A stretch of 64,000 nucleotides of DNA from positions 124,001 to 188,000 of the forward strand of contig NZ_FNGV01000008.1 of NCBI RefSeq assembly GCF_900103215.1. The letters run 5' to 3'. Below are positions 3,413 through 31,584 of this stretch, in pieces (position 1 is the first letter of the stretch; every line of letters starts with the position of its first letter). Source of the DNA: Kriegella aquimaris. GTDB taxonomy: Bacteria; Bacteroidota; Bacteroidia; Flavobacteriales; Flavobacteriaceae. The position numbers were made by a program, and so were the translations under genes. The notes beneath the pieces were generated by a model. That model ran no database searches. It was given only the letters and a program-made list of their open reading frames with translations, and had not been told where the DNA came from.

Positions 3413-5536
3413 TTACTGATGCATTGCCAACTGAATTCGCTTTCTAGCTACGTCTACCGACAAAACTTTTACTATTACCTGCTGGTGTAGATGTACATGT
3501 TCGTTTACATCTTTAACAAAGCTATTCGATAGGTTGGAAATATGAATGAGTCCACTTTCTTTAATGCCAATATCGACAAAACAGCCAAAGTTGGTGATGT
3601 TATTTACAATTCCCGGTAGTAATTGCCCTTCTTGAACGTCGGTTATCGCCCGAATATTTTGATTGAATGCAAATACCTTTGCTTTTTCGCGCCGATCCAA
3701 TCCCGGTTTTTCCAATTCTTCCAAAATATCTTTCAGTGTGGGCAACCCAATACTATCGGTACAATATAAATTTAGGTCAATATTTTGCAATATAGATTTG
3801 TTGCTGATTAATTCTGTGAGAACGACACCCTTATCTTTGGCCATTTTTTCTACTACAGCATAGCTTTCAGGATGCACGGAAGAATCGTCCAGAGGATTTT
3901 TAGCTTCTTTAATCCGTAAAAACGCGGCACCTTGCTCAAAAGCTTTTGCGCCCAAACGTGGTACTTTTCTAATTTGAGAGCGACTTTTGAATGCACCGTT
4001 CTCATTGCGATAATTGAAGATGTTCTCAGCCAGTTTCGGGCCAATACCCGATACGTAGCTCAATAAGGGAACACTTGCTGTGTTAATATTTACCCCAATG
4101 GCATTCACACAGCTTTCTACCACAGAATCTAATGAGGTCTTTAGTTTTGTTTGATCCACATCATGTTGATATTGGCCAACTCCAATCGATTTGGCGTCAA
4201 TTTTGACGAGTTCGGCCAAGGGATCGGCCAATCTACGTCCAATGGAAACGGCACCTCTAACGGTAACATCATAATTTGGGAATTCGTCACGGGCAATTTT
4301 TGATGCGGAATAAATGGAAGCGCCGGCCTCGCTGACAACAAAGACTTCTATGGGGTTCTTAAATGATATGCGTTTTATCAGGCGTTCCGTTTCTCGGGAT
4401 GCCGTACCGTTACCAATAGCGATTGCCTCTATCTTATAGGCATCGGCCAATGAACTTATTTTTTTTATGGCTCCAGAACTATCATTTTTTGGGGCATGCG
4501 GATAGATAGTTTCATTATGTACTAAATCTCCTTGGGCTGTTAAGCAGACGACTTTACAACCGCTTCTGAACCCAGGGTCAATGGCCAGAATGCGCTTTTC
4601 GCCTAAAGGGGCGCCGAGCAAAAGTTGTTTTAGGTTTTTAGAAAATACTTGAATGGCATCTATATCGGCTTTTTCTTTGGCCTTTTTTAAAAGCTCATTC
4701 GATAGCGAAGGAAATAATAGGCGCTTGTATGTATCTTCAATTGCTTGATTGATGTGCTCCGTACAGGGTCCTTTTGATTTTAAAAGGCGTTGCCGTATTT
4801 TTTCAATAGCGCTTTCATCATCTATTTCAATTTTGACACGTATGAATTTTTCGTTTTCCGCGCGCAGAATGGCCAATAGTCGGTGTGAAGGACAACGGTT
4901 TATAGGTTCGCTCCAATCAAAATAATCCCTGAATTTCTGGGCTTTTTCATCCTCTTTTTTTGTGGAGATTACTTTGGTGGTTATCTGACCTAATTTTTCC
5001 AGTTGATGCCGAATCTGATTTCTGATATCACTACGTTCATTTATCCATTCGGCTATAATATGACGTGCGCCTTCAAGGGCTTCTTCTTTATTTTCGATGT
5101 TTTTATTCAAATATCTTGAGGCAATAGCATCAATATCGGTAGCATTTTGGACCATAACGATTTTGGCCAGTGGCTCCAATCCATTTTTTAGGGCGGTTTC
5201 CGCTTTTGTCTTTCGTTTTTTCTTAAAAGGAAGGTATAAATCTTCCAAAGAAGTTAAATCTGCCGATTGTTGAAATTTTTGGCGAAGCTCAGTAGTAAGT
5301 AAGCCTTGTTCTTCGACAGCTTTAATAATGGAATCCTTTCGTTTTTCCAAAGATTCAAATTGACTCTTGAAATTTAGGATGGCCCCCACTTGCACTTCAT
5401 CCAAATTACCCGTGCGCTCTTTGCGATAGCGCGAAATAAAAGGAATGGTACAATCTTCATTGAGTAGGGTCACCGTATTCTGAATGCTCTTTTCAGGGAG
5501 ATTGGTGTGATTGGAAATATATTTGAGAAGTTGCAT
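3413..5536 (-). CDS. tex: Tex-family RNA-binding protein
   Basis: 707 residues, the usual Tex length. It shows the N-terminal helical Tex domain (SRYRKERTGNLDE near residue 35), the YqgF/RNase H-like core (ILAIDPGFRSGCKV, about residue 320), the paired HhH region (SGIGPKLAENI and RKVPRLGAKAFEQ) and a C-terminal S1 RNA-binding domain (GIVNNITNFGCFVDIG... GLIHIS). Tex binds RNA and associates with the transcription and translation machinery. It is followed at once by the PAP2 gene and preceded by 135 bases after metG. No disruption seen. Confidence 0.96.
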   Translation of the reverse strand: MQLLKYISNHTNLPEKSIQNTVTLLNEDCTIPFISRYRKERTGNLDEVQVGAILNFKSQFESLEKRKDSIIKAVEEQGLLTTELRQKFQQSADLTSLEDLYLPFKKKRKTKAETALKNGLEPLAKIVMVQNATDIDAIASRYLNKNIENKEEALEGARHIIAEWINERSDIRNQIRHQLEKLGQITTKVISTKKEDEKAQKFRDYFDWSEPINRCPSHRLLAILRAENEKFIRVKIEIDDESAIEKIRQRLLKSKGPCTEHINQAIEDTYKRLLFPSLSNELLKKAKEKADIDAIQVFSKNLKQLLLGAPLGEKRILAIDPGFRSGCKVVCLTAQGDLVHNETIYPHAPKNDSSGAIKKISSLADAYKIEAIAIGNGTASRETERLIKRISFKNPIEVFVVSEAGASIYSASKIARDEFPNYDVTVRGAVSIGRRLADPLAELVKIDAKSIGVGQYQHDVDQTKLKTSLDSVVESCVNAIGVNINTASVPLLSYVSGIGPKLAENIFNYRNENGAFKSRSQIRKVPRLGAKAFEQGAAFLRIKEAKNPLDDSSVHPESYAVVEKMAKDKGVVLTELISNKSILQNIDLNLYCTDSIGLPTLKDILEELEKPGLDRREKAKVFAFNQNIRAITDVQEGQLLPGIVNNITNFGCFVDIGIKESGLIHISNLSNSFVKDVNEHVHLHQQVIVKVLSVDVARKRIQLAMHQ

Positions 5537-5671
5537 AGGCCCTGGTTCAATTAGTGAATTCGACGAAGTAGGGTCATTCTGTGAAGACCCTGTAGAAAGC
5601 CTGATGTCAGATGCAATTCTTACAACCGGCTCGCTTTATTACGATGCTTGATCAATGAATATACCCGCAAA

Positions 5672-7765
5672 CTAATTGATGCCTTCCCCATTCCCGACAT
5701 TCTCTTCATCAGGATTTAAAAACACCAATTTGCCATCTGTGTTTTCGGTCATCAAAATCATTCCCTCACTTTCAACGCCACGGAGCGCTCGAGGAGCCAA
5801 ATTGACCAATACGGTCACTTTTTTACCGACGATGTCTTCGGGCTCGAAACTTTCGGCAATACCCGAGACGATAGTGCGGGTGTCAATACCGGTATCTACT
5901 TTCAATACCATTAATTTCTTTGTCTTCGGCATTTTTTCGGCTTCCAAAATTGTGCCGACACGCATGTCTATTTTAGTGAAATCATCAAAGTTGATTGTAT
6001 CTTTTTGTGGCATTACTACTTTATTTTCGTTTTCGTTCGCTTTTTTGGTAGCCTCTAGCTTATTAAGCTGAGCTTGAATTTCCTCATCCTCAATTTTTCT
6101 AAAAAGGAGTTCCGATGGTCCAATTTTATGATTGGATGGAAGCAAAGCCTCTTTGGTGGGAACGTCTTGCCAGGTTGAAACTTCATCCTCGGTCAACGTA
6201 GAATTTAGAATGTTTTTTAATTTATTCGAGGTAAACGGTAAAAAGGGTTCACTTAAGATAGCCAAACCTGTAGCAATCTGAAGGGCCACAAACATGATTG
6301 TCTTCACCCGGTCTTCATCTTGTTTGATGACCTTCCAAGGTTCTTCATCGGCCAAATATTTATTACCCAAACGGGCCAAATTCATCAATTCTTGTCCTGC
6401 TTCCCGAAAACGATAGCGCTCCAAAGAATCGGATATGGTTTGTGGAAATTTTCTAAGTTCTTGCAAAGTTGCCAGATCGACTTCAGAAAAATTTGAAGGC
6501 TCCGGAACTATTCCTTCATAATATTTTTGGGTCAAAACCACGACACGATTAATGAAATTTCCGAAAATGGCAACCAATTCATTATTATTTCGGGCTTGAA
6601 AATCTTTCCAAGTAAAATCGTTATCCTTGGTTTCTGGGGCGTTTGCGGTCAAGGTATAGCGCAGTACGTCTTGCATATCCGGAAATTCCTCTAAATACTC
6701 GTGCAACCAGACTGCCCAGTTTTTACTAGTGGAGAGTTTGTTGCCTTCTAGATTCAAAAATTCATTGGCCGGAACATTGTCGGGCAAAATGTAATCGCCG
6801 TGCGCCTTTAAAATTGCAGGGAAAATGATGCAGTGAAAAACGATGTTGTCCTTGCCGATAAAATGCACCAATTTAGTGTCTTCCGATTTCCAGTAGGGCT
6901 CCCAATCTTTATCATTCTTTTCTGCCCACTCTTTGGTTGATGAAATATAGCCAATGGGCGCATCGAACCATACGTAGAGTACCTTGCCCTCTCCGCCTTT
7001 GACAGGAACGGGAATGCCCCAATCAAGGTCCCGGGTTACGGCTCGTGGCTCCAATCCGCCGTCGATCCAAGATTTGCACTGCCCATAGACATTGGGTTTC
7101 CAGTCCGATTTATGTCCTTCCAGAATCCATTTTCTTAAAAAATCCTCGTAGCGATTTAAGGGTAGAAACCAGTGTTTGGTTTCCTTTAAAGTAGGAATTC
7201 CACCGGTAATGGTAGATTTCGGATTGATTAAATCGGTAGCATTCAACGAAGACCCACAATTTTCGCACTGATCGCCATAGGCTTCGTCATAACCACATTT
7301 CGGACAAGTACCAATTACAAAACGATCGGCCAAGAACTGTTTGGCTTCATCATCATACAATTGTGCTGTAGTTTCTTCGATAAAATCGCCTTGGTCGTAC
7401 AATTTTTTAAAGAAATCGGAAGCTGTTTGATGATGTATCGGGGCAGAGGTACGGGAATAGTTATCAAAGGTGATACCGAAGTCTACAAATGATTTCTTAA
7501 TAATACCGTGGTATTTGTCAATGATATCTTTTGGGGTTACCCCTTCCTTTTTGGCCTTCATCGAAATGGCCACTCCATGTTCATCGCTTCCCCCAACAAA
7601 AACGACATCTTGCCCCGTCAGGCGTAAGTAGCGGACATAGATATCGGCAGGAACGTAAACTCCGGCCAAATGACCGATATGAATAGGACCATTGGTGTAT
7701 GGCAGTGCGGCGGTGACAGTATATCTACTGGCCTTTGAAAGGGCATTTTTTGTGGTTTCAGGCAT
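5672..7765 (-). CDS. metG: Methionyl-tRNA synthetase
   Basis: About 697 residues. Class I features: [14 protein letters not shown] (HIGH motif), a four-cysteine zinc knuckle ([18 protein letters not shown]), and [12 protein letters not shown] (KMSKS-type loop). The last about 110 residues form the EMAP/Trbp111-like tRNA-binding domain ([18 protein letters not shown]), as in the long homodimeric form. It charges initiator and elongator tRNA-Met. The ATG at 7765 is chosen over one at 7786 because a near-perfect promoter lies at 7784-7813 and its -7 box overlaps the upstream codon. Confidence 0.97.
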
Positions 7766-7783
7766 CAAAAGTGAATTAGGCCA

Positions 7784-7813
7784 CAAAAATAGCGTTTTTT
7801 ACAAGGGAACAAA
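7784..7813 (-). promoter_or_regulatory. metG promoter, Bacteroidota type
   Basis: On the minus strand: TTTG at 7813-7810, an 18-base spacer, then TATTTTTG at 7791-7784, matching the -33/-7 consensus (TTTG, TAnnTTTG). Transcription would start near 7778, giving a leader of only about a dozen bases before the ATG at 7765. Confidence 0.7.
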
Positions 7814-7832
7814 CCTTCATAAAACTAAAAAG

Positions 7833-7876
7833 TAAAACCTCCAGCAATACCGCAATCGTTATTGTTGAAGGTTTTA
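7833..7876 (-). terminator. Rho-independent terminator after the DUF1800/DUF1501 operon
   Basis: Arms of 17 bases (7833-7849 and 7860-7876) pair with two imperfect positions around a 10-base loop. It starts 19 bases after the DUF1501 stop and is followed on the minus strand by the T-rich stretch CTTTTTAGTTTT. It separates the operon from the metG promoter. Confidence 0.75.
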
Positions 7877-7894
7877 AAGAGATCGGGGGCGAAT

Positions 7895-9613
7895 TTAAGC
7901 CAGCATTACAGATTTGCTCATTTTATGATCTTGTACTTGAATTCTATAAATATATTTTCCAGCTGCTAAGTACAATGGCATTTTTTCACGAATATTAATT
8001 TCTGTTGATCCTTCCATCATAATCTCATTAAAGACCGTACCCATATTTTGACCAAGAATATTGTACAATTGAATATCTACATGGGCGCTAAACGGCATTT
8101 CCAAATAAATATGTGGGTTGTTTTCTACAGGATAGAAGGGTCGGTGAACGATGCCGTTCAAGGCATCAGGTGTTTGTTCGATAGGATCTTCGGGATTATC
8201 AGAATCTGGATCTGGCTGCGTAGGCAATGTTGGTTGTCCATCACTGTAAACAATGTCGGGGAAATCAGTTCCACTACAGTTAAACCCTAGATTTACAGGT
8301 GTATAGGGGTGGTCTAGTAGATGTTGTTCTACCAAGGGTATATCTACACAAAGCCATTCGGCCATTACCGTAGCATAAAGATCTCTAAAATCCATGGTAT
8401 ATTCTAAATTGCCACGTCCATTAGGGTTGTCCAATGAAGAGTGTTCCCCTACAAAAGCACTCCCATTCAGACCTGAACCAAAAAATAAGGTCGGGGCCGC
8501 CTTACCGTGATCGGTACCATTAGAACCGTTCTCGAATATACGTCTTCCGAATTCAGAGAAGGTCATACTCAGTACTTTATCATCTTGTTGTGTAAAGGCA
8601 ATGTCGTCGTAAAAATTATCTATGGCCACCGATAGGTTTGTCATCAGGCGTTCATGGGTCTGTGTTTGATTGCCGTGGGTGTCAAAGCCCCCCATTGATA
8701 TCATATAAACCTTGGTTCCCAAATTTCCTTTTATCAATCGGGCCAAAAGGGCCAATTGTCTAGCGAAACCGTTATCTTGATATTCTACTTGATTTTGTCC
8801 GCGTTCATAGGCTTCGTGTATCAAGCCTGAATATTCATAGGTAGTATTGGCAACACCCCTCAAAAATTGTAATTGATCACCATACATACAGCTATCGAAC
8901 AATGCATCTTCCATTCCATAAACGACACCTGATTCGGCTATTTCTTCTAATTGATCTACATTGGAGGTCACAAACGCATAGTTGGTTTCCTCACCTTGAA
9001 AAACCAAACTTCCATATTGTCCAATTTGTATAGCAGCTGGTGCTGGCGGTGGGGTCATTAAATAATCTGGGAATAAATTCTCAAAATGGCGACCCATCCA
9101 CCCCGTGTTTAAACCACTAAACCCGGTAGAAGTCAAATCGGTGTTGGCAAAAATGTCGGAACCAGTGAAATGTGATAAACTTTGATTTTCGTAACCTACA
9201 CCATGAACAGCCTTAAATTGACCTTCTTCCCACATGGGTTGTAATGATTTCATATAGGAGGGCACTCCGTATTCGTCGGTTAGCCTCAAGACCTTACTTT
9301 CGGGAATATAGATGTTCGGTCGCGCATTGGCATATGAATCATACTGATTAATAGGAATAACGGTACTTAAACCATCATTACCTCCGGAGAGTCGTATCAA
9401 AATTAAAATATTGTCTGTTTCTGCTGCCGCAATGGCCGAAGTCAATGCGGAAGGTGCCGAAGCGGTCAAAAAATTGCTGCCCATCATCATGGATCCTGAA
9501 CCGGCAATGCCCAAGGCTTGAAGAAACGATCGTCTGCTCCAAGTTTTGTGTTCGAGATCGTGACCATCATGGTCTATGCCTTTATGGGGGGTAGTATGAT
9601 TGCTATCGCACAT
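7895..9613 (-). CDS. DUF1501 secreted protein with Tat-like signal and T9SS sorting domain
   Basis: 572 residues. The N-terminus has a twin-arginine motif (SRRSFLQALG, R27-R28) followed by a hydrophobic stretch, which predicts Tat export. The body matches the DUF1501 family, related to the alkaline phosphatase/sulfatase superfamily: LIRLSGGNDGLSTVIP near the start, SMGGFDTHGNQ, TFSEFGRR and GTDHGKA. The last about 80 residues (YPVENNPHIYLEMPF... YNILGQ... GKYIYRIQV) look like a type A type IX secretion sorting domain, preceded by a linker rich in Asp, Pro and Gln. It lies 12 bases after the DUF1800 gene; the two families are regularly paired. Biochemical role is not established. Cell-surface or secreted location is inferred. 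Confidence 0.9.
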   Translation of the reverse strand: MCDSNHTTPHKGIDHDGHDLEHKTWSRRSFLQALGIAGSGSMMMGSNFLTASAPSALTSAIAAAETDNILILIRLSGGNDGLSTVIPINQYDSYANARPNIYIPESKVLRLTDEYGVPSYMKSLQPMWEEGQFKAVHGVGYENQSLSHFTGSDIFANTDLTSTGFSGLNTGWMGRHFENLFPDYLMTPPPAPAAIQIGQYGSLVFQGEETNYAFVTSNVDQLEEIAESGVVYGMEDALFDSCMYGDQLQFLRGVANTTYEYSGLIHEAYERGQNQVEYQDNGFARQLALLARLIKGNLGTKVYMISMGGFDTHGNQTQTHERLMTNLSVAIDNFYDDIAFTQQDDKVLSMTFSEFGRRIFENGSNGTDHGKAAPTLFFGSGLNGSAFVGEHSSLDNPNGRGNLEYTMDFRDLYATVMAEWLCVDIPLVEQHLLDHPYTPVNLGFNCSGTDFPDIVYSDGQPTLPTQPDPDSDNPEDPIEQTPDALNGIVHRPFYPVENNPHIYLEMPFSAHVDIQLYNILGQNMGTVFNEIMMEGSTEINIREKMPLYLAAGKYIYRIQVQDHKMSKSVMLA

Positions 9614-9625
9614 AGTATGTAGGGT

Positions 9626-11119
9626 TTATTTTAGTTGAAACTCAGGTTGTCTTGCTAGATATTGTAGCAAAAGATACACTTGAAATGGGGCTTGTTGCCA
9701 CATGGCCAATGTCCATGATTCATCGATACCGCCTTCATAATAGGTGTCATCTACGTCGCTTCTGAATATTGCGAAGGCTTTCTCATATTCTGGTTCGCCA
9801 AGCAGGCCTTTGGGTAATATAAAGTCTATAATCTGTCTTGCGATTACATCAGGATTGTTACTATCAGTACCGTCATTTCCTGTAATCGACAAGGCAAAAG
9901 ATCGGAACTGTTCATTATCACTTTGATAGAAACCTTCGATAATAGTTTCAATGGTCAACCAACGACCGATCATGAAATTGGTGTTTATCCATGAGCGATC
10001 ACGTTGCCAACCGGCAACATCAAAGGGGTCGAAGAGTGTTTGGCCTAAAAGTCGGGTGTAATTGTTTACTTCTTCGATATTGAGATCGTCGTATGTGAAG
10101 CTGGTTTCTTTAAAAAAGTTAAAGTACATATCGTACGGACTCTTGATAATCACGCCAATGGCGTTGTCATCAAAAAAATGCTGGCTTTTAAACAGCTGTG
10201 CCAAAACGGGAGCTATTTCAAAATCGGAAGACACAAACGTGCTTGCCATTCCACTTATAATAATTTGTGCGTTGCCTGTCTCATCTCTTGAGTCAGGGTG
10301 CACAAAGAATTCATAAAGCTTTCTACAGATAAATTCCGCAATCTCGTCAGCTCGTTGCTCGAATAGAATATCGATGACATCGTCGTACCCCCAATTTCCG
10401 GTTTGCCCCAAAATGGTCTTGCTACCAGCGTCGAAACGTTCTGGATTAAACGTTACCGCTGTACAGCCTATTTCGCCTCGCTCTACGTAGCCCGTCAATG
10501 CTTTTGCAGTTTCAATAATGTCTTCTTCCGTATAGCCGTTTCCCTCTCCTAAAGTGAAAAGTTCATAGAGTTCCCGGGCGTAATTTTCGTTGGGATTATT
10601 TCCGTTGTTATAAACGCCATCTAAATAGTAAAGCATTGCGCTTGTCAGACCAATTTCGCTAACAAATGTTTTGAAATTTCGGATGGCATTGCGCTGTAGG
10701 CAATCAATATAATAATATAGAAAGGAATTACAGTTGTAGATGTCTATTTCTGTGACAAAATGATTGCTCCAAAAAAAACTCAATCGATCTCTTAGATTGT
10801 TGTCCAGTAATGCATTGGAGTAAGTCAATCGGAATTCCGAAAGTTGGGTATTCTTAATTTGATTGCGCTGCTGATCATCTTCTGGGTAGTTGGCATTGGT
10901 CCAATCTGCCCATGTGGGAGCTTGAATGGGTGCCATGTTAAATGCCTCGGCAATTAAGCTGTCTACTAATGTGCTGGCCGTTTGTCCAACAGCTTGTTCA
11001 ATAGTAGCCACAGAGGCACTAAAACCAAGTCTTCTATAGAGATGCGCCGCCTTGGTTGAATCCAAGGGAATAGTGTACGGCGCTAATGTAGAAGAATTAC
11101 AATTAACGAAGTATTCCAT
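9626..11119 (-). CDS. DUF1800 family protein
   Basis: 497 residues. Recognised by the conserved blocks HLYRRLGFSAS near residue 27, RDRLSFFWSNHFVTE, NPNENYARELYELFTLGEG, YTEEDIIETAKALTGY and the C-terminal PFQVYLLLQYLARQPEFQ. The family is known mainly by co-occurrence with DUF1501; no reaction is established. Unlike its partner it shows no obvious signal peptide, starting MEYFVNCNSSTLAPYTIP, although the first residues could hide an unusual export signal. It is the first gene of the pair, with the downstream gene starting 12 bases after its stop, so they are very probably one transcript ending at the 7.83-7.88 kb terminator. Confidence 0.88.
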   Translation of the reverse strand: MEYFVNCNSSTLAPYTIPLDSTKAAHLYRRLGFSASVATIEQAVGQTASTLVDSLIAEAFNMAPIQAPTWADWTNANYPEDDQQRNQIKNTQLSEFRLTYSNALLDNNLRDRLSFFWSNHFVTEIDIYNCNSFLYYYIDCLQRNAIRNFKTFVSEIGLTSAMLYYLDGVYNNGNNPNENYARELYELFTLGEGNGYTEEDIIETAKALTGYVERGEIGCTAVTFNPERFDAGSKTILGQTGNWGYDDVIDILFEQRADEIAEFICRKLYEFFVHPDSRDETGNAQIIISGMASTFVSSDFEIAPVLAQLFKSQHFFDDNAIGVIIKSPYDMYFNFFKETSFTYDDLNIEEVNNYTRLLGQTLFDPFDVAGWQRDRSWINTNFMIGRWLTIETIIEGFYQSDNEQFRSFALSITGNDGTDSNNPDVIARQIIDFILPKGLLGEPEYEKAFAIFRSDVDDTYYEGGIDESWTLAMWQQAPFQVYLLLQYLARQPEFQLK

Positions 11120-11312
11120 AGTTATTTTAGGCTTTAAGAACGTTCATGTGCTTAGGGGCAAATTCTTAACGCTTAAACTCTTTGGATAGTATTCTGATTC
11201 CAGTATTTTCGTTATTCTGATGAGGAATTTACAACCTTACTCATAATTTAGACGTTGAAGTGTCAACCTTTTCGATGAAATACACTATTTTGAGTTGGTT
11301 TTATTGATTTTT

Positions 11313-11672
11313 ATGGGAAAACACAATGAGTTTGGAAAAGAAGGTGAAGACCTTGCTGTCGCTTATCTAATAGAGAAGGGATATACCATCAAATGCCGGA
11401 ATTATAGGTTCTTGAAGGCGGAAATCGATATCATTGCCCAAAAAGACGATATTCTGGCAATAGTGGAAGTGCGTGCCCGGAGCAATGACCAGATTATTAA
11501 TATAGCCGACACGGTGACCAAAAAGAAAATTCAGCTTTTGGTCAATGGAGCGGATAATTATGTCACCGAGCGAAATCTAGACATCGAAGTGCGTTTTGAC
11601 ATCATTGCTATTTTAAAGAACAGTAAGATTTTTAGGATAGAGCATCTCGAAGGGGCTTTTTACCATTTTTGA
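11313..11672 (+). CDS. yraN: YraN/UPF0102 family putative nuclease-fold protein
   Basis: About 119 residues, the normal family size. Conserved blocks: GKEGEDLAVAYLIEKGY near the N-terminus, and the endonuclease-like signature E-I-D-I-I-A followed by EVRAR (about residues 44-60), as in the archaeal Holliday-junction-resolvase-like fold. UPF0102 proteins are widespread but their substrate is unproven. The ATG at 11313 is preferred over an upstream TTG because GKHNEFGKEGED begins the family alignment. The ACT-like gene follows 82 bases later with its own promoter. Confidence 0.9.
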   Translation: MGKHNEFGKEGEDLAVAYLIEKGYTIKCRNYRFLKAEIDIIAQKDDILAIVEVRARSNDQIINIADTVTKKKIQLLVNGADNYVTERNLDIEVRFDIIAILKNSKIFRIEHLEGAFYHF

Positions 11673-11704
11673 AGCACAGGATACATTAATTTAATTTTGC
11701 ACAA

Positions 11705-11736
11705 TTTGTTTTATTTATAACAATATGTTATTTTTG
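11705..11736 (+). promoter_or_regulatory. Promoter of the ACT-like gene, Bacteroidota type
   Basis: TTTG at 11705-11708, a 20-base spacer, then TATTTTTG at 11729-11736. This fits the -33/-7 consensus well and places the start of transcription about 12 bases before the ATG at 11755. Confidence 0.6.
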
Positions 11737-11754
11737 TACCAAATCGATTTTTAA

Positions 11755-12414
11755 ATGAAAACCATTTCCTCGGTTGTTGAGCACTATATCAAGAAAAAAC
11801 CTTTTTTACAAAGCGCTTTGGCACAGGGCATCATCAACCTTACATCGTTATCAAGAATTGTCAAGCCTGAAATCGAAGGGGAACTTGGAAAGGAAATTCG
11901 CAATGGTGCCATCGTTATGGCTTTAAAGCGACTTTCCGATGATTTGGAGTTTCGGGCCACACATAAAATAATCAAAGTACTCAAGAATATTGGTGAGATT
12001 ACCGTACGCTCGTCGTTGACGGATTATACGTTTTTGGCTTCTGACTCGATTCTTGGCCAACAGGCCAAACTTTTGGAAGCGATCAATGATAATCAAGATA
12101 TTTTTTATACCTCCTCAAGAGGTGTCAATGAAATCAATATTGTTATCAGTAATATCATGGATGATACGGTGGAAACTGTTTTCAAAAGTGAAAAATGTAC
12201 ACAAAAAGCCGAAGACCTATCGTCAATCACCGTGAAACTTCCTGCTGAAAATGTTTCTGTACCAGGTATCTACTACTTTATTTTTCAACGTTTGGCTTGG
12301 GAAGGCATTGTACTTTACGAAGTAATTTCTACAACAAACGAATTTACAATTTTAGTCGATGATGATCAGGTCGACATTGCCTTTAAAACGATTAAGGATC
12401 TAAAGACCTTGTAG
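11755..12414 (+). CDS. ACT-like domain protein (aspartate kinase regulatory-type)
   Basis: 219 residues. The first about 65 residues are helical (VEHYIKKKPFLQSALAQGIINLTSLSRIV), resembling a small winged-helix or HTH-like unit. The rest contains two ACT-like repeats: ILGQQAKLLEAI... VNEINIVIS near residues 105-130, and VPGIYYFIFQRLAWEGIVLYEVIS... EFTILVDDDQVDIAFKTI near 165-215. ACT domains bind amino acids and often sense them allosterically. Homologues are commonly labelled aspartate kinase, but no kinase domain is present, so that name would be wrong here. It could be an amino-acid-sensing regulator; that is an inference. It has its own promoter and converges on the thioredoxin-like gene. 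Confidence 0.8.
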   Translation: MKTISSVVEHYIKKKPFLQSALAQGIINLTSLSRIVKPEIEGELGKEIRNGAIVMALKRLSDDLEFRATHKIIKVLKNIGEITVRSSLTDYTFLASDSILGQQAKLLEAINDNQDIFYTSSRGVNEINIVISNIMDDTVETVFKSEKCTQKAEDLSSITVKLPAENVSVPGIYYFIFQRLAWEGIVLYEVISTTNEFTILVDDDQVDIAFKTIKDLKTL

Positions 12415-23644: not shown

Positions 23645-24289
23645 CTAAATGTATTTATGCGAACCATCGCATTGCGGCAATTTTTTAGATTGGCCACACG
23701 TACAATCATTGATTCCTATTCCGTCGAGAATTCGTTTCCGATATTTTTCAACCCGTGCTACTCTGGTTTTAGACTGTTTGGGTGCGGAAAAAAAGAGATT
23801 GTATGCCCTTTGACGACCAGGAGTTAAAGCTTCAAAAGCAGATTTCAAAGTGGGAGATTCATCGAGTTTCTGCTGGAATTCTTCGGGAAATACAAGATTT
23901 GTGCTTTGTTTTAAATTTACTTTGAGTCCTGCCCTTTCTATTTCAATGGCCTCATAAATATAGGCTTTTATGAGCGGTTCCGCTGTGACAATTTCTTGAA
24001 CATCGGTGAATTTAAGCATTCGAACAGATTGAGAGTTTTCTCCAGGAGCTACTAGCAGACCGTGTACATCTTTCAATAAAACTCCTTTAAAGAAACTAAG
24101 TGAAAAGTAGGCTTTAAAACTACCCAATAAGGCGATGTTGTGCTGCTTAAATGTGTAACAGGGTGTTCGCCACTTTAATTCTTCGGTAAGATTACAATCA
24201 ATAAGTATTGTTCTTAATTGTTGCAGTTCTTCCCGCCACTTTGAGGCAGCTTTAAAATATTCGTCAACCTTGGGGTTTGTTTCATTCAT
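23645..24289 (-). CDS. YdeI-like (DUF1801) protein with C-terminal CDGSH motif
   Basis: 214 residues. Residues 1-110 are the DUF1801/YdeI domain (VDEYFKAASKWREEL, LKWRTPCYTFK, LLGSFKAYFSLSFFKG), and 120-185 the YdeI OmdA-like helical part (FQQKLDESPTLKSAFEALTPGRQRAY). The last about 20 residues contain C196-T-C198-x2-S201-x3-P205-x-C207-D208-G209-S210-H211, exactly the CDGSH iron-sulfur signature (three Cys plus one His, binding a 2Fe-2S cluster). The substrate or partner is unknown. It lies alone between the propeller protein and the deacylase gene. I have the impression that similar C-terminal tails occur in other Bacteroidota members, but this needs a search. Confidence 0.88.
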   Translation of the reverse strand: MNETNPKVDEYFKAASKWREELQQLRTILIDCNLTEELKWRTPCYTFKQHNIALLGSFKAYFSLSFFKGVLLKDVHGLLVAPGENSQSVRMLKFTDVQEIVTAEPLIKAYIYEAIEIERAGLKVNLKQSTNLVFPEEFQQKLDESPTLKSAFEALTPGRQRAYNLFFSAPKQSKTRVARVEKYRKRILDGIGINDCTCGQSKKLPQCDGSHKYI

Positions 24290-24553: not shown

Positions 24554-25753
24554 TTAAAACCATTTTTCTTGACAATAATCTTGCTTTTTTGACCGATATT
24601 CTCTGTTTTTAATGAGTAAATGGTGCTGGTCGATTTGTTTACTTCGGTATCCAAAAAGGTGGAATAGCTTTTTAGAAATAAACCTGGCTATGCGAAGGTC
24701 GACAACCATTGTATCCCTTAGTTTTGAATCCCATTTTACACCAGGGAATAATACAAAAACGCGGTCTATCATATACTTTCTTAAGATACTTGAAAGCCAT
24801 AAAAAAAATTTTGGTATTTTTCTTATCAAGAAATAACCGTCGCTACCTTGATTTTGGTAGAGCGGCATGAATATTATGGACTTCTCTTTTGAATAGATGG
24901 CGTTTCCATTGATTGTAGCCAGATTTTCATTTCTATCAATAGATTGAAAATTCGAAAAGCCCGGTTTCATAACAAAGTGTTCATTTTCATTTACATTAAA
25001 TCTATTATAAATTTCATAAAATGCCGGGTGCTTTGGCATGATTGAATTCCAAATTGATAGGTATTGGTCATATTCTATAGCTTTTTGATTTAGGGCATTC
25101 GAAAAAACAAGTGATAGGTAGATGAAAATCTTATGGTTTGTTATCGAAACTAGTTCATCATGTTGTCCTGCTTCAAATCCGAATGAAACATAACCTAGTT
25201 CATTGATGTAACTCAAAAGAGGGCCATCGAGATATTCTTCGATACCTAGAATGAGTGGAACGGGATACTGAGAGGTGAACTTTCTGTTTATCAGGCTATC
25301 ATTTACGGTTATAAATGGAACGGTTTCGCTAGACGTAGTATGGAGGTCAAAAAAATAAAATGGCCCTGTTTCGGTATCCAAAATGCCTTGTAGCAATTCG
25401 AATATTTCAAGTTGTTGCTTTTCATCTTCGTTTTTTGGACTGACACCTTCCTTTTTAAGTGCCTCCATTCTATGGGCGCTCCACAATCGATTCAGGTCCG
25501 CTTTATGATATCGTACCGATCTTTCAAGCGCCCAAAGGTTGCCACTTATTGCAATAAATGAACCTGAAAGGTCTTTTTGTTTATGCCCTAGCTCTTGAAC
25601 TACCTGATGCAATGCAAAAACACTGGCGGGCTCATTTCCATGAATACCTCCAAAAAATATTAAGCATGGCCCTGGCGTCTTGCCATCAACTCTTCCGATA
25701 ATACGATTGACATGAATCGTTTCACCCAGTGCTTTACTATGAACTTTAGTCAT
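24554..25753 (-). CDS. Aspartoacylase / succinylglutamate desuccinylase-family deacylase
   Basis: 399 residues. The M14-type zinc carboxypeptidase fold of AspA/AstE is shown by H38 and E41 (GGIHGNEPAS), the DLNR motif around residue 86, and H138 in FFDLHTTSSETVPF; these form the zinc site and substrate-carboxylate clamp. Family members remove an acyl group from an N-acyl amino acid such as N-acetylaspartate or N-succinylglutamate. The C-terminal about 150 residues extend beyond the catalytic core. The start overlaps the last 8 bases of the GCS2-CBS gene, so translation is probably coupled and the substrate may be the product of that ligase; this is inferred. Confidence 0.88.
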   Translation of the reverse strand: MTKVHSKALGETIHVNRIIGRVDGKTPGPCLIFFGGIHGNEPASVFALHQVVQELGHKQKDLSGSFIAISGNLWALERSVRYHKADLNRLWSAHRMEALKKEGVSPKNEDEKQQLEIFELLQGILDTETGPFYFFDLHTTSSETVPFITVNDSLINRKFTSQYPVPLILGIEEYLDGPLLSYINELGYVSFGFEAGQHDELVSITNHKIFIYLSLVFSNALNQKAIEYDQYLSIWNSIMPKHPAFYEIYNRFNVNENEHFVMKPGFSNFQSIDRNENLATINGNAIYSKEKSIIFMPLYQNQGSDGYFLIRKIPKFFLWLSSILRKYMIDRVFVLFPGVKWDSKLRDTMVVDLRIARFISKKLFHLFGYRSKQIDQHHLLIKNREYRSKKQDYCQEKWF

Positions 25754-27614
25754 TAAAATGAATTATGTCTTTAATTGTTATAATGCCAACCAGTTGTGTA
25801 TCATGTAAAATAGGTAAGCAGCCAATTTCGTGTTTCTTCATGAGTTCAACCGCTTCTTTTATTGGGGTCGATGTTTCAATAGTGATAACATTCTTGACCA
25901 TTATTTCACCAGCACTTATCAATTTATCGGTATTATGAACCAAATCCCAATATTGTTTTAGATACTGCCAGGTAATAAGACCGACCAATTTTTCATTTGT
26001 ATCAACTACAGGTAAGTGGTGTATGTTATTCCACTTCATATATTGAAGGGTCAAAAGTCCTAAATCGGTAGCGTGTGCCGTTACCAGTTTAGAGGTCATT
26101 ATATGACAGGCCAAACGCGCCGTAGAAGTAAAAGAAGTAAAGTCATAGAGGGGTGGCCATTCACTGACAGGGTTTCCGGAATTCTGATTTTCATGAATGG
26201 CTGCCGTAAGCGCAATCAATGCATCATCAGGTTTTAGTTTTTTCTTAAAGTTGCGATGATTTTTTACCATCCATTGTGAACCTGTATGTGTGGAAATTCT
26301 GTCTTTGATTACCCCGAGGTACTTATCTATGTCTGTTTTGTCAATCTTCATCTTTTCAAGTCCGGTTCTTGAAATAGGCAATAATACATTCAGCACAAGT
26401 TCATCTAATGGAATCGCATTCCCCACCCAGTTCATAATCGATTCGGAACCTGTTCGGGCTGCGCGAATAAAATTGGATCGAGCGTCCCTAAATTCCATAA
26501 CATCCGGAAGATTGTCAAATTCTGCTGGCCGACCAGTCATGAGTCCGACCCAAAATGCAAAATTGGCCATTTCGTCTGTTACGGTGGGCCCTGATGGAAT
26601 GTACCTGTTCTCGATCCTGATATGTGGCTTGCCATTGCCTACACCATAACATGGTCGGTTCCATCTATAGATTGTGCCATTGAGCAGATTGAGGGCGCCC
26701 AGCTTAGGAATCTTACCTTTTTTTAATTCATCGAACGAGCTGCTTTTAATTTCTTTAGTAAGCAACGTCTTGAAATGGGAAATTTCGTTTTTATAATAGT
26801 CCACTATATTTCCGGTTATCCAATTATTTCCAAAGGAGACTCTGGCTTCTTGCTCGTTTTGCGCCATAGAAACGAATCGCGTGTCAATACTTTGTTGAAA
26901 AAGGGCAATACGTGTTTCGCTCCATAGCTCTTTGCCCAATAGCAAAGGTGCATTTACACTTATACCAAGAACGGGTCCGGCAATTGCCTGAGCCCAGTTA
27001 TAGCTGGGTATAAAGTCATTCGGGTTTATTTGCAAGTGCATTTGAAAACTCGTGTTACACGCTTCGAACATAACCGAATTGTGCATGATAGAAAGTTCAT
27101 CAACTCCTAAAAGGTGCAACCTGAAATCTCCACCTCTCGCTTCTTTAAGTAAATCGTTCAATGCATAATAACGCTCATGGGGGGTCATATACTCGAATTC
27201 CAGTTCTTGTTTTGAAATACTAGGGAGAATTCCGGTCAGTATAATTTTACTATGGTTATTGTTTGCTGCCGTTTCTGCTTTTTTCAAAAGTGACCGGATT
27301 TGACTTTCAACTTTGGCAAATGCATCTTTGCAAAGCTCAATAGGGTCTAGATTGATTTCTAAATTATATTGTGCCAATTCAGTTGTGAAGTGTGGGTCAT
27401 TGATAGTTTTAAGTACTTCGAGCGCATTCTTGGCGGGTCGCCATTGTTCATTAACCAGACAGAATTCTTGTTCGGCACCAATGCGTATGATATCATCCTC
27501 TATCATCCCATTATTGAACATATATTCAAGACTTTTAAGATCATCGATCAAGTGACCTAAAAAATCAATTTTCGCTTGGTCGTCGGATTTTATATTTATA
27601 TTCTGATCTCCCAT
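25746..27614 (-). CDS. GCS2-type carboxylate-amine ligase fused to tandem CBS domains
   Basis: About 622 residues. The first about 440 residues match the glutamate-cysteine ligase 2 (YbdK-like) fold: IGAEQEFCLVNEQWRP near the start, LELN-type block ELAQYNLEINLDPIELC, MHLQINPNDFIPSYN and RIENRYIPSGPT. Such enzymes join a carboxylate to an amine using ATP. The usual length is about 370-400; here a pair of CBS domains follows (about residues 485-622: HHLPVVDTNEKLVGLITW, then IGCLPILHDTQLVGIITIKD), which typically bind adenosyl nucleotides and regulate activity. ATG at 27614 is preferred; an upstream ATG at 27674 adds 20 unmatched residues. Coupled to the deacylase by overlap. Confidence 0.88.
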   Translation of the reverse strand: MGDQNINIKSDDQAKIDFLGHLIDDLKSLEYMFNNGMIEDDIIRIGAEQEFCLVNEQWRPAKNALEVLKTINDPHFTTELAQYNLEINLDPIELCKDAFAKVESQIRSLLKKAETAANNNHSKIILTGILPSISKQELEFEYMTPHERYYALNDLLKEARGGDFRLHLLGVDELSIMHNSVMFEACNTSFQMHLQINPNDFIPSYNWAQAIAGPVLGISVNAPLLLGKELWSETRIALFQQSIDTRFVSMAQNEQEARVSFGNNWITGNIVDYYKNEISHFKTLLTKEIKSSSFDELKKGKIPKLGALNLLNGTIYRWNRPCYGVGNGKPHIRIENRYIPSGPTVTDEMANFAFWVGLMTGRPAEFDNLPDVMEFRDARSNFIRAARTGSESIMNWVGNAIPLDELVLNVLLPISRTGLEKMKIDKTDIDKYLGVIKDRISTHTGSQWMVKNHRNFKKKLKPDDALIALTAAIHENQNSGNPVSEWPPLYDFTSFTSTARLACHIMTSKLVTAHATDLGLLTLQYMKWNNIHHLPVVDTNEKLVGLITWQYLKQYWDLVHNTDKLISAGEIMVKNVITIETSTPIKEAVELMKKHEIGCLPILHDTQLVGIITIKDIIHFND

Positions 27615-27760
27615 ACTAAATTGGTGTTTAGGGGTTGGGCTAAGATTCGTTGCTGTGATTTGTCGGAGAGACAATACAGCCGAACCTAAAGATAGCTTTT
27701 TGCGCGTGATTTTCGTTTATGGAATCAGCAAGAAATTTTAGGCGTTGTTGTGGCCAGAAT

Positions 27761-28150
27761 TTATTTTAACGTTCTGCTATTCCCGCTTTTCGAAATCCAT
27801 TGTTCAGTAATTCCATAAGCCTCAAATAAAACTTTTGTCAGATTTGAGATTCTACACTTCATATTCCAAATTTTCTGGTTTCTTTCACTTTTATTATTTG
27901 TGGTGCCAACTTTTATTCGACCCCATTTTAAGGTTTCAATCCAAAGTTGGTAGTCATTCCCAGCGTCATCTTTAATACTCAAAGACCGAGCCTTTTCACC
28001 TTAATATTCGTATTGAGTATGAAGTCCAACTTTTGTTGCCCAGTCCTGAACAATTCGGTCAATTTTGAAATATCTCTTTTTCGTTGAGGAAGAACCGATT
28101 AAGAATAAATCCAAAACAGTAACTAATAAATCTACAATTCCTTCTAACAT
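27761..28150 (-). pseudogene. Small gene of unknown family broken by an in-frame TAA
   Basis: Starting at the ATG at 28150, the frame reads 49 codons (MLEGIVDLLVTVLDLFLIG..., ending LHTQYEY), meets TAA at 28001-28003, and continues in the same frame for about 79 more codons (GEKARSLSIKDDAGNDYQLW... SGNSRTLK) before a second stop at 27761. There is no ATG at the start of the second part, and the first and second parts read as one continuous protein. One base change (CAA to TAA) would explain the break. The ATG overlaps the stop of the 313-residue gene as TAATG, showing it once was coupled to that gene. Full length would be about 129 residues: N-terminal membrane-like helix then a soluble domain. 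Family not recognised. Confidence 0.7.
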
Positions 28151-29119: not shown

Positions 29120-29746
29120 TTAATGTGATGAACTCAAAATGAAAATCCTTTCTTTCATTGCAGCGGAATGTCTATTAGGCTTTTCAACCGGACTATGACC
29201 ATGAACCATATCGGTCATTTCTTTTTCCGTTTTCCAAATTGAAAAAGTTGAGACTGTATTCGGAAACTTTACTGATGCCAATGAAAGTGTAGTTCCTGAA
29301 TGGTCTCTAACAAGTTTTTCTACAGGCCTACCCCAATTGATAAATCTGGGAATTGCAAAAGGTTTCATTCTTGCTATTGTTACAGCAACTACTGGAGAAT
29401 TTGGACTTTCTAATTTGTCTTTATAGTCTGGTATTTTGAATTCACTAAACTTCCCCCATTCTCTAATAAAAGACAAGCGTACATGCCAACCTTTTGCTAA
29501 TAATCTTCCAAAATGGTCTTGTACCAAATAATTTTCAAGTGCAGTTTCATTTTCCCATTGTATAAAAATAGCCACTTGTCCTATTAAAATTCTAGAGGTA
29601 GATAAGATTGGGGAACCCAATTTCATGGCTGTCATGTACTCTGAGTGAATCAGCCCTTTGGAGTTCTTAGGAATTGGATTCGAGAATATTCTCTTTATCG
29701 CTTCAAAAAAGGGAAGTTCGACTAAATGATAAGAGAATATATTCAC
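29120..29746 (-). CDS. Spheroidene monooxygenase (CrtA)-like protein
   Basis: 208 residues. Similar in layout to CrtA-like/DUF3291-like ferredoxin-fold proteins: QVAIFIQWENETALENYL, GRLLAKGWHVRLSFIREWG, PVVAVTIARMKPFAIPRF, and a TFSIWKTEKEM strand followed by HGHSPVEKPNRHSAAMKERIF, where the His-rich segment is the conserved tail of the family. Known CrtA oxidises carotenoids using haem, but the assignment of this copy to carotenoids is not justified because no carotenoid gene is in view. First gene of the AT-rich three-gene operon. Function tentative. Confidence 0.6.
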   Translation of the reverse strand: MNIFSYHLVELPFFEAIKRIFSNPIPKNSKGLIHSEYMTAMKLGSPILSTSRILIGQVAIFIQWENETALENYLVQDHFGRLLAKGWHVRLSFIREWGKFSEFKIPDYKDKLESPNSPVVAVTIARMKPFAIPRFINWGRPVEKLVRDHSGTTLSLASVKFPNTVSTFSIWKTEKEMTDMVHGHSPVEKPNRHSAAMKERIFILSSSH

Positions 29747-29913: not shown

Positions 29914-30687
29914 TTACTTATATGGAATCGTCTCAAGAACATGTGAAATAGCATTCAACCGAGCGCTTGATTTTTTGTCGGCGCTGATAATGGTCCACGG
30001 AGCATGTACCGTGTTCGTTTTTTCGAACATTTGCTCTTTAAACGTGCTATACTCATCCCATAATTCTTGTGCCCGCTCATCAACGGCCGTCATTTTCCAA
30101 CGTTTTAAGGGGTCTTTTTTAATATCTTTAAAACGTTTGGCCTGTTCTTCTTTCGAGATGGAAAAGTAAAGTTTGATAAGGTGGATCCCCGACTGGATAA
30201 CCATTTTTTCAAAATCGTTGACCTGCGACATAAAGATCTCATATTCGCTTTCGGTACAGAAGTTATTCACAGGCTCAACCACGGCCCGGTTGTACCAACT
30301 TCTGTCAAAAAATACAATCTCGCCCGGCTTTGGCAATTGGTAGATATATCTTTGAAAAAACCATTGTTTTCTTTCGTCGTCCGTCGGTATGTTCAAGGCG
30401 ACAATTCTGTAATGCCTCGGATTAATGTACTGGGTGAACCTTCGTATGGCCCCGCCCTTTCCGGCGGAATCACGCCCCTCACAAAGAATGACAATCTTTT
30501 CGTCGTTCTCAATGGCCCAGGCCTGCAGTTTTATTAGCTCTTCTTGTCTTTTTTGTAGTTCGAGATAATATTCTACCTCCTCCAATGATTTGACAAGGTC
30601 GACCTTTTTGTTTTTTAAAAGTGCATGTAGGCCTAGCTTCGAGTTGAGCAGGGCGACTTCTTTGTTGTTTAATTCAGATTTGCTCAT
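29914..30687 (-). CDS. ppk2: Polyphosphate kinase 2, copy A
   Basis: 257 residues, the short single-domain PPK2 form. Walker A is GRDSAGKGG at residues 71-79; Walker B-like FFDRS carries D128, followed by WYNRAVVEPV and DPLKRWKMTAVDERAQELWDEY. PPK2 uses inorganic polyphosphate to phosphorylate nucleoside mono- or diphosphates (and in reverse can make polyP). Subclass cannot be told by eye. It starts 48 bases after copy B and ends before the 29.8 kb hairpin, so the pair is probably one operon. Confidence 0.93.
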   Translation of the reverse strand: MSKSELNNKEVALLNSKLGLHALLKNKKVDLVKSLEEVEYYLELQKRQEELIKLQAWAIENDEKIVILCEGRDSAGKGGAIRRFTQYINPRHYRIVALNIPTDDERKQWFFQRYIYQLPKPGEIVFFDRSWYNRAVVEPVNNFCTESEYEIFMSQVNDFEKMVIQSGIHLIKLYFSISKEEQAKRFKDIKKDPLKRWKMTAVDERAQELWDEYSTFKEQMFEKTNTVHAPWTIISADKKSSARLNAISHVLETIPYK

Positions 30688-30735
30688 AAATTATTTCTTA
30701 CGCTACCTCGAGACTAGTCGGATTTGATAAATTTT

Positions 30736-31584
30736 TTATTTGTCGATCTGAACAATACTTCTGTGGTACCGCATTACGATATTGGGATCGGGTAATAGGG
30801 AAACCTTTGATTCTCCTTTGTTTTTATAATCGAACTGCGATAGTACGTACCGCATACTTTCAAGTCGGGCCTGTTTCTTATCATTTGCTTTTACGATGAC
30901 CCAGGGGCTAAAATTGGTATGTGTCTTACTGAACATCTCTTCCTTATGGTGCGTGTAGCTGTCCCATAATTCCTGTCCTCTCATATCTACAGGACTATAT
31001 TTCCATCTTTTTAAAGGATTGTTCAATCGGTCTTTAAACCTCTTTTTTTGTTCGTTTTTAGATATGGAAAACCAAAATTTTATAAGTTTTAGATTATCCT
31101 CGTAAAGTAAATGTTCGTATTCGGGAACTTGAACTATGAATTTTTTATATTGTTCTTTGGAACAAAAGCCCATCACAGGTTCTACAACCGCCCTATTGTA
31201 CCAGCTTCTGTCGAAAAAGGCAATTTCACCAGCATTGGGCAACACTTTTATATAGCGTCGAAAATACCATTGACCCTGTTCTACATCGGTAGGTTTGGTC
31301 AATGCAACAACCTTTGATGTTCGGGGATTTAGGTGCTCTTTAAATCGTTTTATCGAACCTCCTTTTCCTGATGCATCCCTTCCTTCGAATAGTACGGCAA
31401 CTCGTAATTTTTGCTGCACTATCCAATTTTGGAGGTTGACCATTTCGGCCTGCAATCTGGCAAGTTCTTCCTCGTAACTTATTTTTTTTAAGGTCTTGGC
31501 TATCGGAATTTTATTTTTTTTCGCAATCGCGATTAAATCACCACGGGTTTTTGCTTCCAACAAATGATGAGGTTCAAAATTCAT
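30736..31584 (-). CDS. ppk2: Polyphosphate kinase 2, copy B
   Basis: 282 residues. Walker A is GRDASGKGG at residues 68-76 and the FFDRS block carries D125; WYNRAVVEPVMGFC and NPLKRWKYSPVDMRGQELWDSY follow. It is clearly homologous to copy A but well diverged, with a longer C-terminal tail (KVSLLPDPNIVMRYHRSIVQIDK). The differences in the Walker A order (SA versus AS) and tail suggest different nucleotide preference, as seen in PPK2 class I and III enzymes, but this needs testing. It is the upstream gene of the pair. Confidence 0.92.
   Translation of the reverse strand: MNFEPHHLLEAKTRGDLIAIAKKNKIPIAKTLKKISYEEELARLQAEMVNLQNWIVQQKLRVAVLFEGRDASGKGGSIKRFKEHLNPRTSKVVALTKPTDVEQGQWYFRRYIKVLPNAGEIAFFDRSWYNRAVVEPVMGFCSKEQYKKFIVQVPEYEHLLYEDNLKLIKFWFSISKNEQKKRFKDRLNNPLKRWKYSPVDMRGQELWDSYTHHKEEMFSKTHTNFSPWVIVKANDKKQARLESMRYVLSQFDYKNKGESKVSLLPDPNIVMRYHRSIVQIDK

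Follow-up and report, generated by a model that had tools for sequence, protein, structure and literature searches.

The 64,000-nucleotide stretch analysed here (the window) holds a gene for a GCS2-type carboxylate-amine ligase, fused to a pair of CBS domains, that runs into a gene for an AspA/AstE-type zinc amidohydrolase. The question raised by this locus is whether an amide-forming and an amide-cleaving enzyme encoded in this manner serve one pathway, and on what kind of compound they act. The analysis described below indicates that the two are almost certainly linked in one pathway.

Layout of the gene pair

Both genes lie on the minus strand. The ligase gene (622 aa) occupies positions 25746..27614 and, although an in-frame TTG is present upstream at 27674, its start was taken as the ATG at 27614 because the MGxxNV start of homologues matches there. 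The hydrolase gene (399 aa; 24554..25753) was assigned using Pfam PF24827 (E 8e-14) and a structure model. The stop of the ligase gene and the start of the hydrolase gene share the 8 nt ATGACTAA (25746..25753, minus strand). Re-reading of the sequence confirmed the coordinates and strand given to both ORFs in the original prediction, together with the 8-base overlap that it had described.

Several features surround the pair. An apparent small gene with an internal stop was seen by eye on the minus strand at 27770-28140, in the gap that separates the ligase from the ORF upstream of it. A weak similarity to CrtA (spheroidene monooxygenase), far below the cut-off, was found at 29120-29746, and two neighbouring PPK2-type polyphosphate kinase genes, both above the TIGR03707 cut-off, lie at 29914-31584. 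On the other side, positions 23645-24289 encode a protein of 214 aa that contains DUF1801 and OmdA/YdeI regions and, at its C terminus, matches a CDGSH-like zinc finger slightly below the cut-off. The wider operon of the window (two PPK2 genes, CrtA-like gene and an uncharacterised upstream gene) was considered and set aside, as none of these is among the recurrent neighbour families elsewhere.

The ligase and its CBS pair

Residues 1-490 of the ligase (26145..27614, minus strand) were delineated as a glutamate-cysteine-ligase-fold domain using an AlphaFold model, PDB matches and conservation across 108 homologues. Profile scores for the window protein itself were low: Pfam GCS2, with its cut-off at 21 bits, gave 13.9 bits (E 0.034), or 14.6 bits when the domain was scored by itself, and TIGR02050, the YbdK subfamily model, gave 17 against 176.4 bits, with no NCBIfam model scoring over its cut-off. 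Pfam GCS2 nevertheless matched 11 of 15 homologues, with E values down to 5e-7, and several relatives exceed its cut-off, for example that of genome G310 at 40.0 bits. A PDB sequence-profile search returned no GCS2 match and no close sequence relatives except for the CBS part, and hhalign gave no significant alignment to E. coli YbdK on its own. The fold was therefore settled by structural comparison only, using a model built from the 108-sequence alignment (mean pLDDT 94.3), which matched the YbdK-type structures 1tt4 (Z 36.1) and 1r8g (Z 35.7), plant glutamate-cysteine ligase (GCL; 2gwc, Z 31.1) and yeast GCL (3ig5, Z 28.3). More distant matches were E. coli GshA and Dop/PafA (Z 18-20). Judged from this model, the ligase is a divergent member of the GCS2/glutamate-cysteine-ligase superfamily, and the domain reading first made from the sequence (GCS2 plus CBS) was right: its GCS2 part, below the Pfam cut-off in the window protein, is upheld by the fold and by the relatives over the cut-off.

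Invariant positions across the 108 homologues comprise N84, E86, P131, R148, Q191, H193, Q195, W231, E233 and R235, and likewise D244, R246, W318-N319-R320, R333, E335 and R337, while G46, E48 and E50 (the latter two near-invariant) occur in every row of the alignment covering them. The acidic and arginine set E48, E50, E86, E335, R235 and R337 is thus conserved in all homologues covering these positions, its equivalence to YbdK and GCL residues being assigned by eye. On this by-eye mapping, the conserved residues appear to fall on the YbdK and plant/yeast GCL motifs that hold Mg-ATP and substrate. With E. coli YbdK (1r8g; GCS2, PF04107) the ligase shares the fold (rmsd 2.3 over 345 residues) and an N-terminal GxExE-type motif, but identity is 15%, the window protein is about 100 residues longer, and its family carries a C-terminal CBS pair and, in many lineages, a hydrolase partner. 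With plant and yeast GCL it shares, in addition to the fold, the motif order RYxxL, CxxxxQxxxQ, NSPxxxGK...R (by eye), whereas identity is again low (16%), a CBS pair is added, and no sign of cysteine as the acceptor was seen.

The tandem CBS pair spans residues 500-622 (25749..26117, minus strand) and is matched by Pfam CBS over the cut-off in two stretches (84 bits, E 9e-24). The [ST]xxD motif is retained in the second repeat, as it is in 91 of the 108 ligase homologues. The nearest folds are AcuB structures with bound AMP, ADP or Ap4A (Z ~19); adenine nucleotides are bound in these AcuB-type proteins, from which the window pair differs in being fused to a ligase, and an adenylate is the predicted ligand here.

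The hydrolase

The AstE_AspA_cat model (PF24827) scores the hydrolase at 52 bits against a cut-off of 25, whereas the NCBIfam equivalog models for AstE (37.9 against 305.65 bits) and aspartoacylase (35.6 against 180 bits) remain far below theirs. A structure model built from 18 sequences (pLDDT 90.7) matched AstE (2g9d, Z 23.3), DoeB (6twm, Z 22.3), aspartoacylase (4mri, Z 21.2) and CphZ (8ein, Z 19.9). The original prediction had stated that all zinc ligands were present, and indeed H38, E41 and H138 are invariant in the 18 sequences, as are R81, N88, R89 and the catalytic E194. Many members of the AspA/AstE family are N-acyl-amino-acid deacylases (AstE, ASPA, DoeB), and CphZ cuts a beta-Asp-Arg omega-amide dipeptide. 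The window protein resembles these M14-like enzymes in fold (Z 20-23), zinc ligands and catalytic glutamate but differs in its low identity (14-19%), its scores below the equivalog cut-offs and 85 extra C-terminal residues. This extension (residues 315-399; 24557..24811, minus strand) is missing in some genomes of family f38, in family f19 and in the fusion proteins of family f6 described below. By simple offset, the position ten before the catalytic glutamate, which we take to be Arg168 in human ASPA, is Asn184 here.

Conservation, fusion and joint inheritance

In an order-level sample, the ligase core was detected in 21 of 148 genomes; besides the window's own, 8 of these carry the hydrolase directly downstream (L006-L013) and 12, all from the streamlined-genome family f6, carry the two as a fusion (L014-L025), although some of the fusion ORFs are interrupted or cut by contig ends. 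The fusions consist of one protein of about 915-940 aa in complete copies, in the order ligase, CBS-like region, hydrolase, with a second CBS repeat that lacks the [ST]xxD motif. They are the strongest single argument for a common pathway. Of the 96 loci fetched in which the two genes adjoin, 54 have overlapping reading frames, and the median distance between the genes is -1 nt. For these figures the start codon was set to the first possible one, and some of the loci cover the same place. As adjacency is shared by these 96 loci and fusions are found in 12 ligase-bearing f6 genomes, the arrangement is not a matter of chance.

A phylum-level sample of 395 Bacteroidota genomes contained the ligase in 116 and a hydrolase of the window's group, called at E below 1e-50, in 59. 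Both were present in 56 genomes, the ligase only in 60, the hydrolase only in 3 and neither in 276 (Fisher p 2e-31, kinship ignored). Rare co-occurrence, which had been named as an outcome that would speak against the original prediction, was thus not observed, with 56 of the 59 hydrolase genomes carrying both genes. Of the 60 ligase-only genomes, 21 belong to family f32, the green sulfur bacteria (FMO protein was present in the five genomes checked), in which a CBS-less ligase adjoins a divergent AspA/AstE gene; at L145 this hydrolase gene, above the Pfam cut-off, overlaps the ligase gene by 13 nt. A ligase without any such hydrolase is found in 39 of the 116 genomes, mostly of families f28-f66, and stands alone in the loci read there. 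In family f19 both genes are present yet unlinked (5/5 genomes), and two tandem ligase-CBS genes followed by the hydrolase occur in some f38 genomes and at L089 and L105.

The two genes also share a history. Pairwise distances of ligase and hydrolase correlate with r 0.76, compared with 0.16 for the best of 500 label permutations. In trees of 42 loci, both window genes group with Algoriphagus (Cyclobacteriaceae; support 96/93 in the ligase tree, 94/87 in the hydrolase tree), a genus of a different family from that of the window's genome, and Cecembia and Cognataquiflexum fall among Flavobacteriaceae in both trees. The placement of both window genes outside their own family argues that the pair moves as a unit, and transfer as one unit would be the simplest reading of these phylogenies. 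The functional link is accordingly supported by adjacency and overlap, by the f6 fusion, by co-presence when unlinked (f19), by the mirrored trees and by joint transfer.

Some loci depart from the usual arrangement. The hydrolase of a Winogradskyella MAG (L108 7843-9033) is split into two ORFs by sequencing error or decay. An Aureispira MAG (L053 7848-12219) has a ligase-CBS gene followed by a DUF2804 gene in place of the usual hydrolase and, further on, RimK with a different AspA/DoeB-like gene. A contig labelled Verrucomicrobia (L046) carries a Bacteroidota-like pair, which reflects mis-binning or transfer. At L200, L203 and L202 (family f6), the fusion gene is flanked on its upstream side by a PD-(D/E)XK-like gene and immediately downstream by a class-I glutamine-amidotransferase-like gene, the latter being present in some f6 genomes only.

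Proposed function and alternatives

The preferred reading, given a probability of about 0.5, is that the ligase makes a gamma-glutamyl-type amide under adenylate control and that its coupled partner hydrolyses this amide. The ATP-dependent ligase would join a gamma-carboxylate donor to an amine or amino acid, the donor probably being glutamate; the C-terminal CBS pair would sense the adenylate state and gate the reaction; and the translationally coupled zinc hydrolase would cleave the resulting omega-amide, so that the pair would set the level of one small gamma-glutamyl-type metabolite. It is somewhat favoured that the two enzymes act on the same bond, the hydrolase presumably cleaving the ligase's own product. 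Of the original proposal that one compound is made and broken, the functional unit is borne out by fusion, co-occurrence and joint transfer, but strict pairing is not, since the 39 ligase genomes without the hydrolase mean that turnover by it is not obligatory, and since in three genomes the hydrolase accompanies a GshB-like ligase in place of this one. Of the two products then suggested, a gamma-glutamyl-type compound is favoured and an N-acyl amino acid is less likely, because the nearest folds are glutamate-cysteine ligases. Against the preferred reading, ATP would be wasted in a futile cycle by a permanently fused ligase and hydrolase if gating were not tight, and the CBS2 motif has been lost from the f6 fusions. 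More tentatively, the pair might constitute a self-contained, energy-gated synthesis and turnover device, a single polypeptide in one lineage, for an undescribed gamma-glutamyl-type metabolite widespread in Bacteroidota and green sulfur bacteria that serves as a compatible solute, storage or signalling compound.

The main rival, although itself unlikely, is a protect-and-release scheme, in which the ligase attaches a gamma-glutamyl group to an acceptor that further enzymes modify before the hydrolase strips the group off again, the same bond type being handled at different steps of a pathway, as is established for PuuA/PuuD and EgtA/EgtC. In its favour, one locus (L154 of genome G243, 4869-12304, minus strand) contains a single run made up of EgtB, EgtD, a tandem pair of ligase-CBS genes and the hydrolase, and in the window's genome (L194 4167-6321, contig C18) an EgtB-like gene above the TIGR03440 cut-off adjoins an EgtD-like gene slightly below the cut-off, suggesting that ergothioneine or a relative may be made in this organism; the glutamine-amidotransferase-like gene beside some f6 fusions also fits. 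However, no intermediate enzyme is conserved beside the pair across lineages, the association of EgtD with the ligase (69/116 genomes with it, 59/279 without) is confounded by phylogeny, and the L154 run was the sole one seen. An EgtA/EgtC-like part in ergothioneine metabolism was consequently rejected as the general role, EgtD distribution not being tight and linkage having been seen once. It is less probable still that the hydrolase acts upstream, deacylating an N-acyl amino acid or other amide and so feeding free amine or glutamate to the ligase. The deacylase activities common in the family and the fold matches to AstE, ASPA and DoeB agree with such a role, which would also explain ligases that manage without the hydrolase, but no acyltransferase is conserved beside the pair and the AstE and aspartoacylase equivalog scores lie far from their cut-offs. 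A chance neighbourhood with no common role, for which the presence of each gene alone in some genomes could be cited, is highly improbable in view of the conserved overlap, the co-occurrence when unlinked and the joint transfer, and is contradicted by the f6 fusions.

Thiol metabolism, with the ligase as a divergent gamma-glutamylcysteine ligase and the hydrolase recycling gamma-glutamylcysteine or glutathione, is similarly doubtful. It is favoured by the GCL fold and by six sampled Flavobacteriaceae in which, elsewhere on the chromosome from the pair, a separate cluster holds GltP-like, GshB-like (PRK12458 family) and FGase-like genes together with a QEGLA or QEGLA-like gene. Most of the ligase genomes tested, and the window's genome too, lack the GshB-like, FGase-like and QEGLA cluster, however, and glutathione was for this reason rejected as the role; in the window's genome such a role is unlikely. 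There, QEGLA was not found, the best PRK12458 match scored 93 against 408 bits, with distant ATP-grasp matches only, and the bacillithiol gene BshA exceeds its cut-off, as in 35 of 36 genomes tested. With BshA present but close relatives of GshB absent, cysteine is disfavoured as the acceptor in the window. Furthermore, N-methyl-bacillithiol is made by the green sulfur bacteria, the carriers of the CBS-less pair; in the species tested, glutathione was undetected, and glutathione genes were not found via similarity to known gshA/gshB (PMC6282198). In three genomes with the hydrolase and no ligase (G039, G486 and G396), the hydrolase gene lies beside a GshB-like ATP-grasp gene and a MATCAP/QEGLA gene, and the substrate may thus belong to a different or broader class of small amides. 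QEGLA accompanied the hydrolase in 11/18 (p 5e-6) and the ligase in 9/18 (p 0.06, not clear), kinship being ignored in both. The associations seen in the three genomes and in the six Flavobacteriaceae, although lineage-limited, point to products of glutathione-type peptide ligases as substrates of the hydrolase.

Relation to known systems

Ligases and hydrolases are paired in several known modules: RimK with AspA-like genes, NAGGN synthetase with an M42 peptidase, EgtA/EgtC, PuuA/PuuD, and cyanophycin synthetase/CphZ. The pairing of an amide ligase with a hydrolase of the corresponding bond is therefore a known type of arrangement, for which the RimK and AspA-like genes at L053 provide an instance read here. 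The window's pair differs from these modules in its ligase superfamily, in its domain fusion and in the union of ligase, CBS region and hydrolase in one chain in f6. No published characterisation of the pair was found in the open literature searched, and none of the curated family models names it; an earlier in-silico mention is possible in a 2009 survey of amidoligase gene clusters, reportedly by Iyer and colleagues.

A pair that is kept in hundreds of genomes across the phylum, has moved as a unit and has become one gene in streamlined genomes is almost certain to produce or control something of use. The fusion and the three states encountered (both genes, ligase only, and hydrolase with another ligase) make the question of the product directly testable, and the product would fill a gap in the small-molecule biology of marine Bacteroidota and green sulfur bacteria. 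A possible link to salt was noted, in that the best 80 named matches, a list chosen by similarity, come largely from marine or saline taxa.
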